Assembly: GCF_002234675.1 (NCBI RefSeq)
Contig: NC_019864.2
Coordinates: forward strand, 16,695,582 to 16,759,581
Length of the DNA: 64,000 bases
Direction: 5' to 3'
Source of the DNA: Oryzias latipes
Lineage: Eukaryota; Chordata; Actinopteri; Beloniformes; Adrianichthyidae
The position numbers and the translations under genes are program-made. Every line of letters begins with the position of its first letter. Position 1 is the first letter of the stretch. Below are positions 8,117 to 59,328 of the stretch, one piece after another. Below the pieces are notes generated by a model. That model had not been told where the DNA came from, did not search any database, and worked only from the letters and a program-made list of their open reading frames with translations.

Positions 8117-10469
8117 ATGGAGGAGCATGATATAAAAACGGATATGTATTCATCAGACCACACACAACAGACCATTGACGGATGTCAATCAGGTGAGGCC
8201 TTAACTTTATCAACATATATAATATCTTTTAAGATTATTTTAATGGAGAACCTTCAGTTAAATCTACCCAGTCTGTGCCTTTAAAGGCTGTAGAGTTTAT
8301 AACACTAGAAAAGTACTTTAAGAACTAATCAAAGCCTTGTTAAAATGTTACTGAAGCAATCTAATCATAATTTCTATTCTTTTTTAGTCTTGGCAGAAAA
8401 AAGTCCTCGTAAAGGTCGTGGCCCAGACGTGCTTTGTAAAGTGTGCTCTGATTCCAGCAGTGGTAAACACTACGGCATCTATGCCTGCAATGGCTGTAGC
8501 GGCTTCTTCAAACGCAGCGTGCGGAGAAGACTGATTTACAGGTGAGGTGGAGCTGCCTGGGAACCAAAAGTCCGAGCAGAAAACATCAAGGACACAAACG
8601 GCGGTCATAATCTTTTCAAACCATTTCAAACTGTTCTATAAAATGATTGCAGATCAGACAGTGTCCCCAGACAGAGATGTTAAGCCTGTTTGTTTAGCTG
8701 TACAAGAATGAAAAATGTATGTTCTTAAGTTATATATTCTTTATTTTATGTTTTAGGTGCCAGGCTGGAACTGGAAGGTGCCCTGTTGATAAGGCCCATC
8801 GGAACCAATGCCAAGCTTGCCGACTTAAAAAGTGTCTCCAATCTGGGATGAATAAAGATGGTGAGAAATGTCAGCATATTTGATAACTCCAGTCATAGTC
8901 TTTTTTTTCATGAATGAATGAATGAATGAAAAAAATCAGTCATAGTCTGTGTTTTTTATATAGCTGTGATGCTTTTTTTTCTTTTTTTATGTCAGCTGTG
9001 CAGAATGAGCGACAGCCTCGAAGCACAGCTCATGTCAGCCTAGAATCCCTTAATGTAGAGGCTAAAAAGGAGCACTTGGCCACCACAAGGGAGTTCTCAA
9101 CCTCAGATCCCTACTCATCAGCCATCTGCAGACCTCTGGTTACTTCATCTGCCTCCAATTCATCCACTACACAGCCTTGCAGCAACCCAAGTATCAGCCA
9201 CCGCTTTATGGTCAACCTGTTGACTGCAGAAACCTGTGCAAAACTGGAGCCTGAAGATGGTGAGGTCACCAAGGAGAATTAAAATCAATGACTGTTTCTT
9301 TAAGCTGCAGTTCTTACGTTTTTGTTCAGGGTTATATTGGGGGAACTGGGTGGGTGGAGGGAGGAATCTGGTGAGGGAGGGGTGCGTTATTGTCTTTTGT
9401 TTTTCTGTTTTAATTAATTTTCATATTTTATGACTATTTTATTTGCCTATGTGTAAAGTTATCAAGTGTTATGAGGTCCTATACAAACAAATAAAGTTTG
9501 AGTGTGAGTGTACTTGGATTGAAATGACTGTAAACTAGTTCTTTTTTCCTGACTCACAGTGGAAGAGAATATTGATGTCACATCAAATGATCCAGAGAGG
9601 CATGACGCCTTAGAAGGTCACGCGTTTAACTCCATAGAGAGCGTGTATGAAACGTCAGCACGACTCCTCTTTATGTCAGTAAAGTGGACCAAAAATTTGC
9701 CAATTTTTGCTCACTTGCCATTTCGAGACCAGGTGAGTCTGAGTCTCCAAACAGTTCTGACACGTTTTTGCAGTGCCTCAGTCTTCATGTAGTGGCTTCT
9801 CTTGAACTTTGTCAGGTGATTCTGCTTGAGGAATCCTGGAGCGAGATGTTCCTTCTGTGTGTCATCCAGTGGTCTCTGCCCATGGACAGCTGTCCTCTTC
9901 TGTCACTGCCGGAGCTTTCTCCCAAGCAGCAGGCCAAGGTCAGCCCGCCAACATCCGACCTGCAGATCCTGGAGGAGGTTTTCAATCGTTTCAAGGCTCT
10001 GACAGTCGATCCCACTGAGTTTGCCTGTCTCAAAGCCATTGTGTTGTTCAAGCCAGGTAAGCAATTAATCATTTAGGAGGTTCAGTCACTGCTGACTGCA
10101 TTTTGTAAGTGTTTGCTGTTTGTCCTTGGTGCAGAAGCACGCAGCCTCAAAGACCCAGAGCAGGTGGAAAATTTGCAGGATCAGTCTCAGGTGTTGTTGG
10201 GTCAGCACATTTATTCAGCATATCCCAACCAGAGCACCAGGTGAACCATTTTTACTGTGTTTTTGTCAGAACGCATGGATTTCTAAATGAAAATATCATT
10301 AAATATTGCCAATGCTGCTCTTATTTGTCCCACCAGATTCGGGAGGATGTTACTCCTGCTGCCATCCCTTCACTTTGTGAGTTCTGCAAAAATAGGGCAG
10401 CTGTTCTTTCAAAGAACCATAGGGAACACACCCATGGAGAAGCTGCTGTGTGATATGTTCAAAAACTGA
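8117..10469 (+). CDS. nr2e3: Photoreceptor-specific nuclear receptor NR2E3
   Basis: Orphan nuclear receptor of the NR2E group; in vertebrate retina it acts in rod precursors with CRX and NRL to repress cone genes and support rod genes. Coding exons: 8117-8192, 8388-8541, 8757-8860, 8996-9259, 9560-9732, 9816-10056, 10135-10240, 10337-10469 (TGA). The total of 1,251 nt gives 416 residues (human 410, from memory). The DNA-binding domain spans about residues 42-108: zinc ligands C42, C45, C59, C62, then C78, C85, C95, C98; the P-box is [11 protein letters not shown]. The conserved stretches [23 protein letters not shown] and [11 protein letters not shown] lead into the ligand-binding domain (from about residue 220), which ends in [17 protein letters not shown] with the AF-2 helix. 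The start is the first ATG of a short exon giving [15 protein letters not shown]; it splices in phase to the second exon. A further 5' noncoding exon cannot be excluded. Confidence 0.97.
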
Positions 10470-17208: not shown

Positions 17209-19631
17209 ATGGCCAGGTGGCATATGTGTCGGAGACCTGTGGGGCTGCCGCTGTCCTGGGCAGAGGAGCCGATAGCATCAGGTGCACGCTCCAGCAGCAG
17301 CATGCCTGTCATCCGGCAGGCATACCCGGAGAGCAGCAGCGTTGTCAGGCCTTTCAATGAGATTCCCGGACAGTGGAAAAACGGGCTGGTCAACCTGTAC
17401 AACTTCTGGAAACTGGACGGCTTCAAAAACCTTCATCGGATCATGGTGCAGAACTTCAACACATTTGGACCCATTTACAGGTAAAGAACAAAAAAAAAAC
17501 ATTTTGCAAAATAGTCTGATTTTTAGACACAACAGTAATGATGTGACTGGAAGTTAAGGCTTCACAAGGTCGAATAAATACAGAAGATGAAAAGGCCTTT
17601 TCATTTTTTCTCTCTTTGTGTCAGAGAGAAAATAGGCTATTATGAAAGTGTAAATATCATCAAACCTGAAGATGCTGCAACCCTGTTTAAAGCTGAAGGC
17701 CACTATCCCAAAAGGCTAAAGGTTGAACCTTGGACATCATACAGAGACTACAGGAACCGTAAATATGGAGTTCTGCTGAAGTATGTACTCTGACACGCTG
17801 TCATCACGGTTCAGCTTCCGCTCGATTGATTTCAATCGAGCGGATAAGTCACTTTATCAGCTTTAGAATTTTCTGTATCATCTTCTTTTATAGGGACGGT
17901 GCAGACTGGAGATCAAACCGTGTGATTCTTAATAAGGAGGTGATTTCCCTGAAGATGCTGGAAAACTTTGTGCCTTTGCTGGATGACGTGGGTCAGGATT
18001 TTGTGGCCAGGGTTCACAAAAAGATCAAGCGAAATGGCCAGAACAAGTGGACCACAGACCTTTCTCAGGAACTGTTTAAATATGCCCTGGAGTGTAAGAC
18101 TTGCATTTCCCCCCCATTTGTGTCAGTCTGCATGTATGCAGCTATTCTCACAAAGCTCTTTGTCTTTGTCTCATCCCATCCTCCACAGCTGTGGGCTCAG
18201 TACTGTATGGGGAGCGTTTGGGTTTATTGCTGGACTACATCGACCCTGAAGCCCAGCACTTCATTGACTGCATCACCCTCATGTTCAAAACTACCTCGCC
18301 CATGCTGTACATACCCCCCAGTGTGCTCAGGCGCATTGGATCAAAGGTGTGGCGGGACCACGTGGACGCTTGGGATGGGATATTCAACCAAGGTGAGACT
18401 ATTATCTGACTTTTGTTGTCTTTAAACAGTTTTCTAAAACAGTTCTGAGGTTTTTTGTTGCACTTCTATCTTTTCGGTGCATCAGCGGACCGCTGCATCC
18501 AGAACATCTATCGGGAATTACGTCTGGAGACAGGAACCTCTGAGAAATACCCAGGAGTCCTGGCTAGCCTCCTGATGTTGGACAAGCTGTCCATTGAAGA
18601 CATTAAGGCCAGCATCACTGAGCTAATGGCTGGAGGAGTAGATACAGTAAGAATAAAGAAATTAATGAAAATATGTCACTTACACGAATGTATGACTGTT
18701 TAATTCTTTGTTGTTTTTTTTTTGTCTATCAGACTTCCATAACACTCCTATGGACTTTGTATGAATTAGCCAGACACCCCAGCCTCCAGGAGGAACTGAG
18801 GTTGGAGGTGGCTGCAGCTCGAGCTGCAAGTCAGGGAGACATGATGGAGATGCTGAAGCGGGTTCCTTTGATCAAAGGGGCTATAAAAGAAACATTAAGG
18901 TGAAAAAAAAACATTTGAAAAGGTTAAATTTTAGAAATGAGACAGCATAGATAGACAAAAGCTTTTTTTTTAATCAAAAGGCTCCTCGTGATTAGTTTGT
19001 CTCAATGACTCAATAAACAAATAAAGCCAACATTTTATTGGAATATTTTCATACCTCAGGTTACATCCTGTTGCCGTGAGTCTGCAAAGATACATTACAG
19101 AGGATATAGTGATTCAAAACTACCACATCCCGGCTGGGGTAAGAAGCAGTTTTTTCAAAACATAGGTGCAAAAATGACATGACTTCTCTGACTTTTTCTA
19201 CTTTTCTTGTTGGTGTTTGTGTCTAGACTTTGGTCCAGTTGGGATTGTATGCAATGGGAAGGGACCCTAAGGTGTTCTTTCGTCCAGAGCAGTATCAGCC
19301 CTCCCGCTGGCTGAGGACAGAGACACACTACTTCAGAAGCTTAGGATTCGGCTTTGGCCCTCGCCAGTGTTTAGGACGCAGAATAGCTGAGACAGAGATG
19401 CAGATCTTCCTCATCCACGTGAGATCATTAACATTAGAAAGCTTAACCTGCACAGTTGATTATTATCAGTAAAATATGCTCGTTTTGAACAATATATCTC
19501 TCTTGCAGATGCTTGAGAACTTCAGAGTGGAGAAACAGCGACACATTGAAGTGCAGAGTACCTTTGAGCTTATTCTCTTACCAGACAAACCAATAATACT
19601 GACTTTGAAACCACTACAAGCTAATCCCTAG
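17209..19631 (+). CDS. cyp11a1: Cholesterol side-chain cleavage P450, mitochondrial
   Basis: Converts cholesterol to pregnenolone at the mitochondrial inner membrane, the first step of steroid hormone synthesis, with electrons from adrenodoxin. Coding exons: 17209-17480, 17625-17780, 17894-18093, 18189-18392, 18486-18646, 18733-18899, 19060-19138, 19227-19418, 19509-19631 (TAG). The total of 1,554 nt gives 517 residues (human 521, nine exons, from memory). The Arg-rich, Ser-rich N-terminus ([12 protein letters not shown]) suits a mitochondrial presequence. Later: [20 protein letters not shown]-helix AGGVDTTS (326-333), ExxR as ETLR (384-387), and the heme loop [12 protein letters not shown] with Cys461 as the iron ligand. 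The frame is open upstream of the ATG only from non-ATG codons, so Met at 17209 is taken as the start. No canonical NR5A1 site (CAAGGTCA) or TATA box was seen close upstream; AAGGTCC near 16754 is only a partial match. Confidence 0.97.
17818..17843. repeat. 12-bp perfect hairpin in cyp11a1 intron 2
   Basis: Arms CCGCTCGATTGA and TCAATCGAGCGG are separated by two T, within a 113-nt intron (17781-17893). The CpG-containing arms contrast with the AT-rich intron. It would form a very stable stem in the pre-mRNA. Function unknown. Confidence 0.9.
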
Positions 19632-42475: not shown

Positions 42476-42696
42476 GCGTCAGACTAATGACCTGTCCAGG
42501 GTGTACCCCACCTTCACCCACCAGTGGCCGGAATAGGCTCCGGCAGCCCCAAAACCGCAAGAGAGACAAAACAGGTTTAGAAGATGAATGAATGAATGAA
42601 TGAATGAATGAATGAATGAATGAATGAATGAATGAATGAATGAATGAATGAATGAATGAATGAATGAATGAATGAATGAATGAATGAATGAATGAA
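42476..42696 (+). mobile_element. Truncated L2-like LINE 3' tail ending in (TGAA)n
   Basis: The segment GACCTGTCCAGGGTGTACCC ... GGAATAGGCTCCGGCAGCCC is the 3' tail of a common fish L2/CR1-clade LINE, followed by a (TGAA)n tail from 42584. TTTTCT directly precedes (42470-42475) and follows (42697-42702) and occurs once in the uninterrupted copy B (50419-50424), giving a 6-bp target duplication. The copy is strongly 5'-truncated and non-coding. Confidence 0.8.
42584..42696. repeat. (TGAA)n microsatellite, about 28 units
   Basis: An uninterrupted tetranucleotide run that forms the tail of the L2-like insertion. On the minus strand it produces a spurious open frame of repeated Ile-His-Ser-Phe residues. 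Confidence 0.95.
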
Positions 42697-42753
42697 TTTT
42701 CTTTATATATGTCCTCCATCATGAGAAAAATGCCACAAGAACACCTCAAAGCA

Positions 42754-57245: not shown

Positions 57246-58014
57246 AACCCAGCAATCGCACTCCATCAGGAATTTTAAACTACTTATTAAATCAACATGC
57301 ATGTTCTCTGGGCTTTGAGGGAAAGCCAGAGTTTTTGCTGAAAGCCCATTCAAGCATGTGGACATGCAGTCAAACTCTCCACATGAAGGTACAGTCACAG
57401 ATTAGCTGAAAATTTTCTATGTAAGTCTTAAAGAAAATCACGATTTGATTTTTTTTTTCAAATTTAGTTTTTATTGAAAAAGCACATGATAAATTGTACA
57501 TTGCATTGGCAGATTACACAAAATTTGATTTTAAAGAGCAGGTTTTATTTAATTTAAAGTATTTAATATTTTATTTATTTTATATTTTTCTCAATTTTAA
57601 TATTTAAAATTTAATATTTTTTTCATTAAGACCAAAGTGATTGGCCTGCACAGTCAAGAATGTTTAACCTGCGTGCAACTTTAATTCATAAACCTGGATT
57701 TCCAGTTTCCTCACAGCTATCAATTTTATAATCTCTTAATCCCACTTGTCCTTTTAAAGTCTGTAAAAAATAAAACATGTAAGCAAAATGTTCTTGGTAC
57801 AGTTCTTTTCAACAACTTATTTCTGTTAGAACTTTGATATGAAAACAATCTGTACAACAGTATAGCACCAATTAAGAAACCCAACTTCAGATATATGTAT
57901 ATTACGGAGCCCCTAAAGGGCCATTGATAGGAAAAAAATGGAGGAAAAAAATTTTTTTTTTGAAGTAAAAATTTTTTTTTGAAGTAAAAAAAATAAAAAA
58001 AAATAAAACTAACT

Positions 58015-58287
58015 GGTGCGCACCAGTTAGTTTCAGGTGCGCACCCCTTAGTATCAGGTGCGCACCAGTTAGTATCAGGTGCGCACCCCTTAGTATCAGG
58101 TGCGCACCAGTTAGTATCAGGTGCGCACCAGTTAGTTTCAGGTGCGCACCAGTTAGTTTCAGGTGCGCACCAGTTAGTATCAGGTGCGCACCAGTTAGTT
58201 TCAGGTGCGCACCAGTTAGTTTCAGGTGCGCACCAGTTAGTATCAGGTGCGCACCAGTTAGTTTCAGGTGCGCACCAGTTAGTATCA
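58015..58287. repeat. Left array: 13 x 21-bp units
   Basis: Each unit is GGTGCGCACC followed by AGTTAGTTTCA or a close variant (TTTCA/TATCA; two units have CCTTAG for AGTTAG). The first ten bases are a perfect palindrome containing GCGC. 58006-58033 is a perfect 28-bp palindrome at the array edge. Confidence 0.97.
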
Positions 58288-58425
58288 GAAGATATCAGAT
58301 AGTTGACCTACTTGCTCATTGTGCACCAAGTAGCTACAGTTGTCTTGAGAATGGCTAAAGTTGAGGATATGGACCTTGTAAACTTTCTGAAAACAAGAAA
58401 TATTACTGACAATGTCATGATGTCA

Positions 58426-58803
58426 CCTGAAACTAATTGGTGCGCACCTGAAACTAACTGGTGCGCACCTGATACTAACTGGTGCGCACCTGAAACTAAC
58501 TGGTGCGCACCTGAAACTAACTGGTGCGCACCTGAAACTAACTGGTGCGCACCTGATACTAACTGGTGCGCACCTGAAACTAACTGGTGCGCACCTGAAA
58601 CTAACTGGTGCGCACCTGAAACTAACTGGTGCGCACCTGAAACTAACTGGTGCGCACCTGAAACTAACTGGTGCGCACCTGAAACTAACTGGTGCGCACC
58701 TGAAACTAACTGGTGCGCACCTGAAACTAACTGGTGCGCACCTGAAACTAACTGGTGCGCACCTGATACTAACTGGTGCGCACCTGATACTAACTGGTGC
58801 GCA
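58426..58803. repeat. Right array: 18 x 21-bp units, inverted to the left array
   Basis: Units are the exact complement of the left-array consensus, with the same two variants (GAAACT/GATACT). Because 21 is divisible by three, one frame reads PETNWCA or PDTNWCA 18 times, joined in frame to an ATG at 58351 in the spacer. Translation is doubtful. Confidence 0.97.
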
Positions 58804-59328
58804 CCAATAATTTATTTTTTTTCCTTTTTACTTCAAAAAAAAATATTTTACTCCCAAAAAATTTTTTTTTACTTGAAAAAAAAAATTTTTTCCTCCAGTT
58901 TTTTTTTTTTCATCAATGGCCCTTTAGGGCTCCGTAGTATATGTATATATACATAGTCTTTTTTATTTTATTTTTTATTTTTCAAACATGTTGATAATTA
59001 AAATACAATGATGTACCCCTAAATATGATAGCAATAATAAAAAAGTGCCACAATAACATTAACACAAAACATGTTTGGAATGGAACAGGCAGAAGCTTAG
59101 CTTGTTCAATAAAGCCTCCCCCTACAACAGACAAGGAAATAAATGTTTAGTTGAAAAGAGCGACATGAAAGTTGTTTGTAGTCCATGGAAAACACACTTC
59201 CTTAATTGTTGAAGAATATTTAGTTTTGTTGCCACAAAGACTATATGAAGCCTACATCTTCTCCATGTGTGTGTTTTTTTTTCTCAGTCCACTCCAGATT
59301 TCTACAAAATAAGTGTCATAGGTTGATT

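Follow-up and report, generated by a model that had tools for sequence, protein, structure and literature searches.

A foldback-shaped element of 1,034 bp with TA...TA termini occupies positions 57903–58936 of the window, corresponding to C6:16753484-16754517. The window is the whole 64-kb stretch of the Oryzias latipes genome that was analysed (C6:16695582-16759581). The element begins with TACGGAGCC and ends with GGCTCCGTA, and the 6-bp target-site duplication GTATAT, read from the sequence and tested for equality, flanks it on both sides (57897–57902 and 58937–58942). On the plus strand, the left terminal inverted repeat (TIR) TACGGAGCCCCTAAAGGGCCATTGAT (57903–57928) is followed by an A/T block (57929–58014) and by an array of 13 units of 21 bp (58015–58287), each composed of the core GGTGCGCACC and a linker that is mostly AGTTAGTWTCA. 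The array is succeeded by a leader (58288–58350), which in long copies of the element sits between the array and a first exon, and by the first 68 nucleotides of exon 1 of a HECT gene (58351–58418), which read MAKVEDMDLVNFLKTRNITDNV and were recognized in a by-eye comparison with the long copies on contigs C10 and C19. A deletion junction (58419–58438, plus strand) leads into the opposite array. The remaining features are on the minus strand and comprise the right array with 18 inverted cores (58424–58805), the right A/T block (58806–58911), and the right TIR (58912–58936), which has one C less than the left TIR. The cores span positions 58015 to 58267 in the left array and 58439 to 58796 in the right array, and the fold-back arms of 279–298 nucleotides are 93–95% complementary. 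The mirrored A/T blocks contain short tandem repeats of 19–21 bp with alternating A and T tracts (57948–57990, with a 19-bp repeat, and 58825–58896), which are possibly bent DNA. Elsewhere in the window there are a perfect ATGA microsatellite of 28.5 copies (42584–42697) and exon-like frames at 9651–10076 and 18098–18903 of the plus strand, which in Pfam match the ligand-binding domain of nuclear receptors (E 1.2e-07) as well as cytochrome P450 (E 7.9e-08 and 3.7e-14).

The bounds of the element, its mirrored A/T blocks, and its 13 and 18 opposed 21-bp units had been given correctly to the base in the original prediction. The more than 30 identical core sites in CpG-poorer surroundings that it described are borne out by 31 exact occurrences of the core in the window, every one within the element, and by a CpG observed/expected ratio of 0.675 inside the element and 0.336 outside. 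When up to two mismatches are allowed, the window contains 36 matches to the core, compared to a mean of 7.1 and a maximum of 15 in shuffled sequences. The left TIR is the sole match in the window to an 18-base TIR pattern searched without gaps at up to three mismatches; the right TIR is missed by this search because it is one base short. The same two unit variants had been proposed for both arrays, and this pair is indeed shared and makes up the two most frequent types of the subfamily, with 248 and 133 of 512 units; however, the left array also contains two copies of a third type, CCCTTAGTATC.

Relatives of the element were sought in the 734,051,031 bases of the 25 contigs of the genome. The inner 24-mer of the left TIR has exact matches at 94 sites. 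When two mismatches are tolerated, a 20-base TIR sequence is present at 368 sites, and when one mismatch is tolerated, a pair of units is present at 694. The reversed control of each search gave 0 sites. The loci taken were all 94 exact-TIR sites and 36 places among the matches listed (174 matches; 40 of 138 candidates scored), and three short elements alone were added from the further sites of the 20-mer. Sixty-four elements were parsed, of which 57 are two-ended, and the seven one-ended elements were excluded from the duplication counts. The two-ended copies are spread over many contigs, and most of them have TA..TA termini. Exact 6-bp duplications flank 38 of the 57, seven more have duplications with one mismatch, and 12 have no duplication even at one mismatch, whereas mispaired flanks match in 5 of 3,192 control comparisons. 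Extra internal TIRs are present in two copies, L017 and L033, for which the outermost TIRs were used; an exact duplication is absent from both. A mobile element with relatives in the same genome had thus been rightly anticipated; the absence of further copies had been named as grounds for abandoning the idea, and the target duplications, absent from the original prediction, are among the evidence that it called for.

Four long copies with the same ends, of 10,727 bp (C5), 10,713 bp (C10), 10,602 bp (C19), and 7,772 bp (C7), are all flanked by exact duplications and provide the transposase-encoding copy whose existence had been considered worth a search. They carry a gene for the transposase and, convergent with it, a gene for a HECT ubiquitin ligase. 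The transposase frame from the C5 copy (P0001) contains a DDE integrase core (Pfam rva_4, E 1.7e-20), and P0003, a frame on the other strand, has a match to the HECT domain in the C-terminal part of that domain (Pfam, E 7e-8). Both frames are open in the C5 and C10 copies and damaged in the C19 and C7 copies, and P0001 is identical in two long copies. No DNA-binding domain was detected by Pfam in the protein pieces scanned. The inverted ends of each long copy can be aligned with one another, over 595 bp in C5, 574 bp in C10, separate pieces (463 and 404 bp) in C19, and 282 bp in C7. The C5, C10, and C19 copies have the same succession at both ends, in which the TIR is followed by the A/T blocks, the array, the leader, and finally a first exon with a GTAAGC donor behind it; the first exon was found at only one end of the C7 copy. 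The HECT-side exon 1 of 90 nucleotides, MAEVEDMDLVNFMKTRNITDNVIKKIVEDK, is predicted from the sequence to be spliced in frame into IDINVINVMTDQDL... past an AG acceptor. The copies at C5:18902500 and C10:15129336 have different duplications and are identical outside the arrays, as would be expected after very recent movement or copying. One of their arrays differs by one unit and the other by a 7-bp insertion and one substitution.

The 42 genome matches of P0003 were grouped by eye into 30 HECT places. A transposase match lies within 6 kb of 22 of these places and within 12 kb of 24, in a count that drew on 52 of at least 136 transposase matches; HECT and transposase are on opposite strands in 23 of the 24 places. 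Six places are far from any transposase match, and inspection by eye of the transposase matches listed revealed none nearer to them. At loci L009 and L013 it was also observed that this group of HECT-ligase genes mostly adjoins the present transposase lineage on the opposite strand.

The 6-bp duplication and the integrase-like transposase place the element in the IS3EU group, for which TA...TA ends and 6-bp duplications have been described as hallmarks (PMC10045372); the fungal IS3EU families reported in PMC12730594 have TAYGG..CCRTA ends and 6-bp duplications. The lack of an HHCC zinc motif ahead of the core is a further criterion of the group. Judging by its ends, its duplications, and the type of transposase in its autonomous relatives, the window element is almost certainly a non-autonomous IS3EU-type DNA transposon. 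It resembles IS3EU/GingerRoot elements in all these features and in an end that starts with TACGG, and the long copies resemble the fungal TET-bearing IS3EU elements described in PMC12730594, in which the transposase and another gene, for an alpha-kinase, are in opposite orientations. By contrast, the partner gene here encodes a HECT ligase, and the ends carry variable palindrome-cored arrays. Neither "subterminal" nor any wording on tandem repeats turned up when the main texts of PMC10045372 and PMC12730594 were searched for such terms, and the portions of PMC8268682 and PMC12763893 covered contain nothing on arrays of this kind. In the table of a survey of transposons in four teleosts, a single IS3EU value is given (PMC4746887), which by its size would fit zebrafish. 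A published IS3EU family with this 21-bp unit was not found in the PMC literature (Repbase and Dfam being outside the search), and neither a cross-family pattern of end arrays nor HECT cargo was found for IS3EU in the PMC literature (Repbase being outside the search). The literature on HECT together with transposons yielded one paper, on the coelacanth. Literature matches to the core sequence were unrelated by title among the matches listed, and no exact copy of the 21-nucleotide unit occurs in the viral-contig collection.

ISL2EU, first suggested by a TA-flanked CGGAG end, was dropped, since the element reads TA...TA with 6-bp duplications. Elements of the PIF/Harbinger-ISL2EU (PHIS) group have no duplications or duplications of 1–4 bp (PMC10045372), instead of the 6 bp observed here. 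The 6-bp duplication also differs from the 4–5 bp of Ginger1 and Ginger2. It equals the value for Polintons, which combine such duplications with a DNA polymerase gene and are longer than the long copies described here.

The kinship with FB/Galileo elements that had been suggested amounts to an analogy. Galileo, a member of the P superfamily from Drosophila, has long TIRs with internal tandem repeats, the number of which differs between the TIRs of one copy, and these repeats have been proposed as secondary transposase-binding sites (PMC3573991). The window element shares with it the variable tandem repeats within inverted ends that are unequal in number; however, Galileo has 7-bp duplications (PMC3573991), a P-type transposase, a repeat of about 210 bp, and a proposed exchange of sequence among copies, as opposed to the 6-bp duplications, rva_4 relatives, 21-bp units, and lack of significant exchange between arms in the present family. 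Tetris of Drosophila virilis is a Foldback-type element for which its authors suggest the Mutator superfamily (PMC4079207). It is similar in its foldback shape, tandem repeats in inverted ends, and changes in copy number, but it has duplications of 8–10 bp and repeats of about 220 bp, and no transposase copy of it was found, unlike the window element with its 6-bp duplications, 21-bp units, and transposase-bearing relative in the genome. Galileo and Tetris thus provide precedents both for tandem repeats of variable number within long inverted ends and for the proposal that transposase has additional sites there.

The window copy is an internal-deletion derivative of an approximately 10.7-kb element in the same genome. 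Its spacer, which had been called unique, consists by eye of the leader and the first 68 nucleotides of HECT exon 1, joined to the other array within a unit. It is not unique because this junction recurs, with up to four edits, in 30 of 60 elements tested, which include the window copy and exclude the four long ones. Since the junction is common to 30 elements, a single founder deletion was followed by amplification. The mean pairwise distance of the junction region among the 30 founder copies is 0.047 and the median is 0.033. The copy nearest to that in the window is L016 on C5, at distance 0 and with the derived junction letters in common. The spacers of the two copies are identical. Their arrays differ in length by a single unit in one arm and by two units in the other, so that 63 gap letters (three units) distinguish the arrays, along with 9 substitutions; outside the arrays there are 4 substitutions and 2 gap letters.

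The arrays alter in length independently of each other and faster than the rest of the element. The number of units per arm ranges from 0 to 48 and is uncorrelated between the arms, both in the 30 founder copies (rho 0.14, p 0.45) and in 31 elements with at least three units per arm (rho −0.05, p 0.80), in agreement with the separate length changes that had been proposed. The exchange of sequence between arrays that was part of the same proposal did not find support. In 26 founder copies, the distance between the opposite arms of the same element is 0.142, compared to 0.133 between opposite arms of different elements (permutation p 0.94), and arms of the same side differ by 0.087 and 0.100. 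In 18 copies, one rare unit type is common to both arms of a copy, compared to an expectation of 0.49 (p 0.42). The proportion of GTATC units exhibits a weak, non-significant trend toward exchange between the two arms (rho 0.29, p 0.11, 31 elements). Gene conversion between arms was thus tested and is not significant. With regard to a possible role of CpG methylation, the CpG of the core has undergone 20 C-to-T and 26 G-to-A transitions in 949 units, which exceed those at most other G/C positions, but unit positions 9 (43), 12 (26), and 20 (88) equal or surpass them. In our opinion, these high counts arise because variants multiply within arrays and because array-end units are included.

An open frame on the plus strand (58303–58956) includes the exon-1 start codon, contains MAKVEDMDLVNFLKTRNITDNVMMS and then PETNWCA repeats, and continues through the right array beyond the end of the element. 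Its phase is never shifted by the number of units, since 21 bp are seven codons. The frame is probably incidental. A coding role of the arrays was dropped as the main reading because several array frames are open on both strands and other families also have periods of 20, 22, and 23 bp.

Subterminal arrays are present in other families of the same transposase lineage. At least 136 matches to P0001 were obtained in the genome, with 133 of 391 candidates scored. Thirteen loci around relatives of about 40–60% identity were taken, and together with P0001 they were assigned by identity and ends to eight families, F1–F8, in which the catalytic D, D, and E are invariant in one aligned member per family. 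By eye, F3 copies have the TIR TACGACGGAGTATTAGGGCC and duplications CTAAGG and TATTTA, and F4 has the TIR TACGGAAGCTCTGAGC, TATGG at one end, and the duplication CATATA. The units, also assigned by eye, are based on GGTGCGCACC in F1, on GTTCGAAC in part of the units in F2, on CGTAAATTTACG in F3, and on CTCGTTATAACGAG or a close sequence in F4. The F5–F8 ends, TACGGTGGCC, have units of near 20 bp with no obvious palindrome, so that at least some palindrome-cored units occur in four of the eight families. Transposase and HECT gene lie on opposite strands at the F1–F4 loci, and no P0003 match was found within the 10 kb taken at the F5–F8 loci. The best autocorrelation lags are 21 and 21 in F1, 21 and 22 in F2, 23 at three ends in F3, 44 and 44 in F4 (22 being second), 20 in F5, 20 in F6, 40 in F7 (20 being second), and 20 in F8. 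These 13 ends are not independent, since F1, F2, and F4 contribute two each and F3 three. Twelve of the 13 surpass all of 200 shuffles (10 of 11 when the window element is left out), with narrow margins for the F2 end on C8, both F4 ends, and F5, and the exception is the transposase end of F3 on C12. Among 192 control windows from the 64-kb stretch, four exceed 60 shuffles, one of them at a lag of 20–23, 40, or 44. The set contains a single end per F2 locus and for F5–F8; loci L081, L083, L084, and L086, which belong to the same families, are outside it, and the transposase end on C14 was excluded because a second inverted copy is present there. A second inverted end was observed near the transposase side of an F3 copy (L078, 6300–7741), which suggests nested or rearranged ends.

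Copies with few units provide information on how much of the arrays is retained. Thirteen short copies are 126–302 bp long and contain 0–5 cores, and exact duplications flank eight of them, which indicates that long arrays are not needed in a copy that has duplications. It is possible, however, that the arrays of the short copies shrank after insertion. At least one core with up to one mismatch is kept in 56 of the 57 two-ended copies and in 12 of the 13 copies of up to 302 bp, compared to 1 of 1,300 shuffled controls; one 126-bp copy is without any core. Three more diverged short copies, with best ungapped core mismatches of 1 (L096), 2 (L094), and 3 (L095), provide partial support for core retention.

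As a whole, the observations are probably best explained by an IS3EU-type deletion derivative that is moved in trans and whose arrays are candidate protein sites. The transposase of the long copies would recognize the TIRs of window-type copies and move these in trans, and such mobilization by the long relatives is very likely. The palindromic units may bind a dimeric protein, for which the transposase or another factor encoded by the element is the most likely candidate, with a single unit sufficing in the shortest copies. The chance that the units serve as binding sites for an element-encoded protein is about even. Long arrays are not obviously needed for movement, the units of F5–F8 have no obvious palindrome and those of F2 have it in part of the array, and the periods, at 20, 21, 22, and 23 bp, do not all correspond to whole turns of the helix. 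Units would be gained or lost in each array separately, through slippage or unequal exchange. Given their position immediately ahead of first exons, the arrays may in addition regulate the genes of the element.

It is conceivable, but doubtful, that regulation is the only function of the arrays, as promoters or enhancers of the two genes that are bound by host transcription factors, have no role in transposition, and hitch-hike in deletion copies. In three of the four long copies, about 60 bp separate the end of each array from a first exon that has a GTAAGC donor, at both inverted ends, and the F3 transposase starts, by eye, directly after the array. However, the retention of a core in nearly all two-ended copies, tiny ones included, speaks against this possibility, and units that are wholly different between families of one host are unexpected under one conserved host factor. 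In maize MuDR, the long TIRs hold the promoters of two convergent genes; that element has a different transposase and another duplication length, and to our knowledge it is without a 21-bp palindrome array. The arrays could alternatively be a neutral by-product, in which a slippage-prone palindrome near the TIR expands alone in the manner of a minisatellite, as the wide range of unit numbers, the uncorrelated arms, and near-identical copies that differ mainly within arrays would allow. We regard this as rather unlikely, since nearly the same period with unrelated units is not expected from free slippage, and all 13 ends from eight families, even if partly non-independent, have best lags of 20–23, 40, or 44, with 12 of them above all shuffles.

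The extensive complementarity of the fold-back arms and the presence of exon-1 sequence of the autonomous gene in the element could also indicate a source of hairpin RNA that silences autonomous copies via small RNAs. This is improbable, as the arms are not kept homogeneous, which weakens the case for selection for pairing. Inverted tandem arrays are error-prone in assembly, and a single array might have been collapsed or duplicated into two. Nevertheless, an assembly artefact is extremely improbable, since an exact target duplication flanks the element, its junction is shared by 30 elements spread over many contigs, and long copies at other loci are built in the same way.

The preferred explanation, an element moved in trans with arrays as candidate protein sites, permits a broader and tentative idea. 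Subterminal arrays of 20–23 bp, a period close to two turns of the helix, might be a lineage-wide organ of these IS3EU elements, with a palindrome or word particular to each family: family-specific, fast-changing platforms that would co-evolve with the DNA-binding protein of the element and insulate families from cross-mobilization, with the number of units tuning dosage and the inverted ends supplying the promoter and first exon of the HECT gene. The C5 and C10 copies of 10.7 kb offer a clean measure of array change, since both arrays already differ while the rest is identical. If the explanation is right, one genome holds a natural series of eight families with different end-array words at nearly equal spacing, in which the co-evolution of transposase and end sites and the avoidance of cross-mobilization would become directly testable. 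Furthermore, a group of fish HECT ubiquitin-ligase genes would be largely transposon cargo, which matters for gene annotation.
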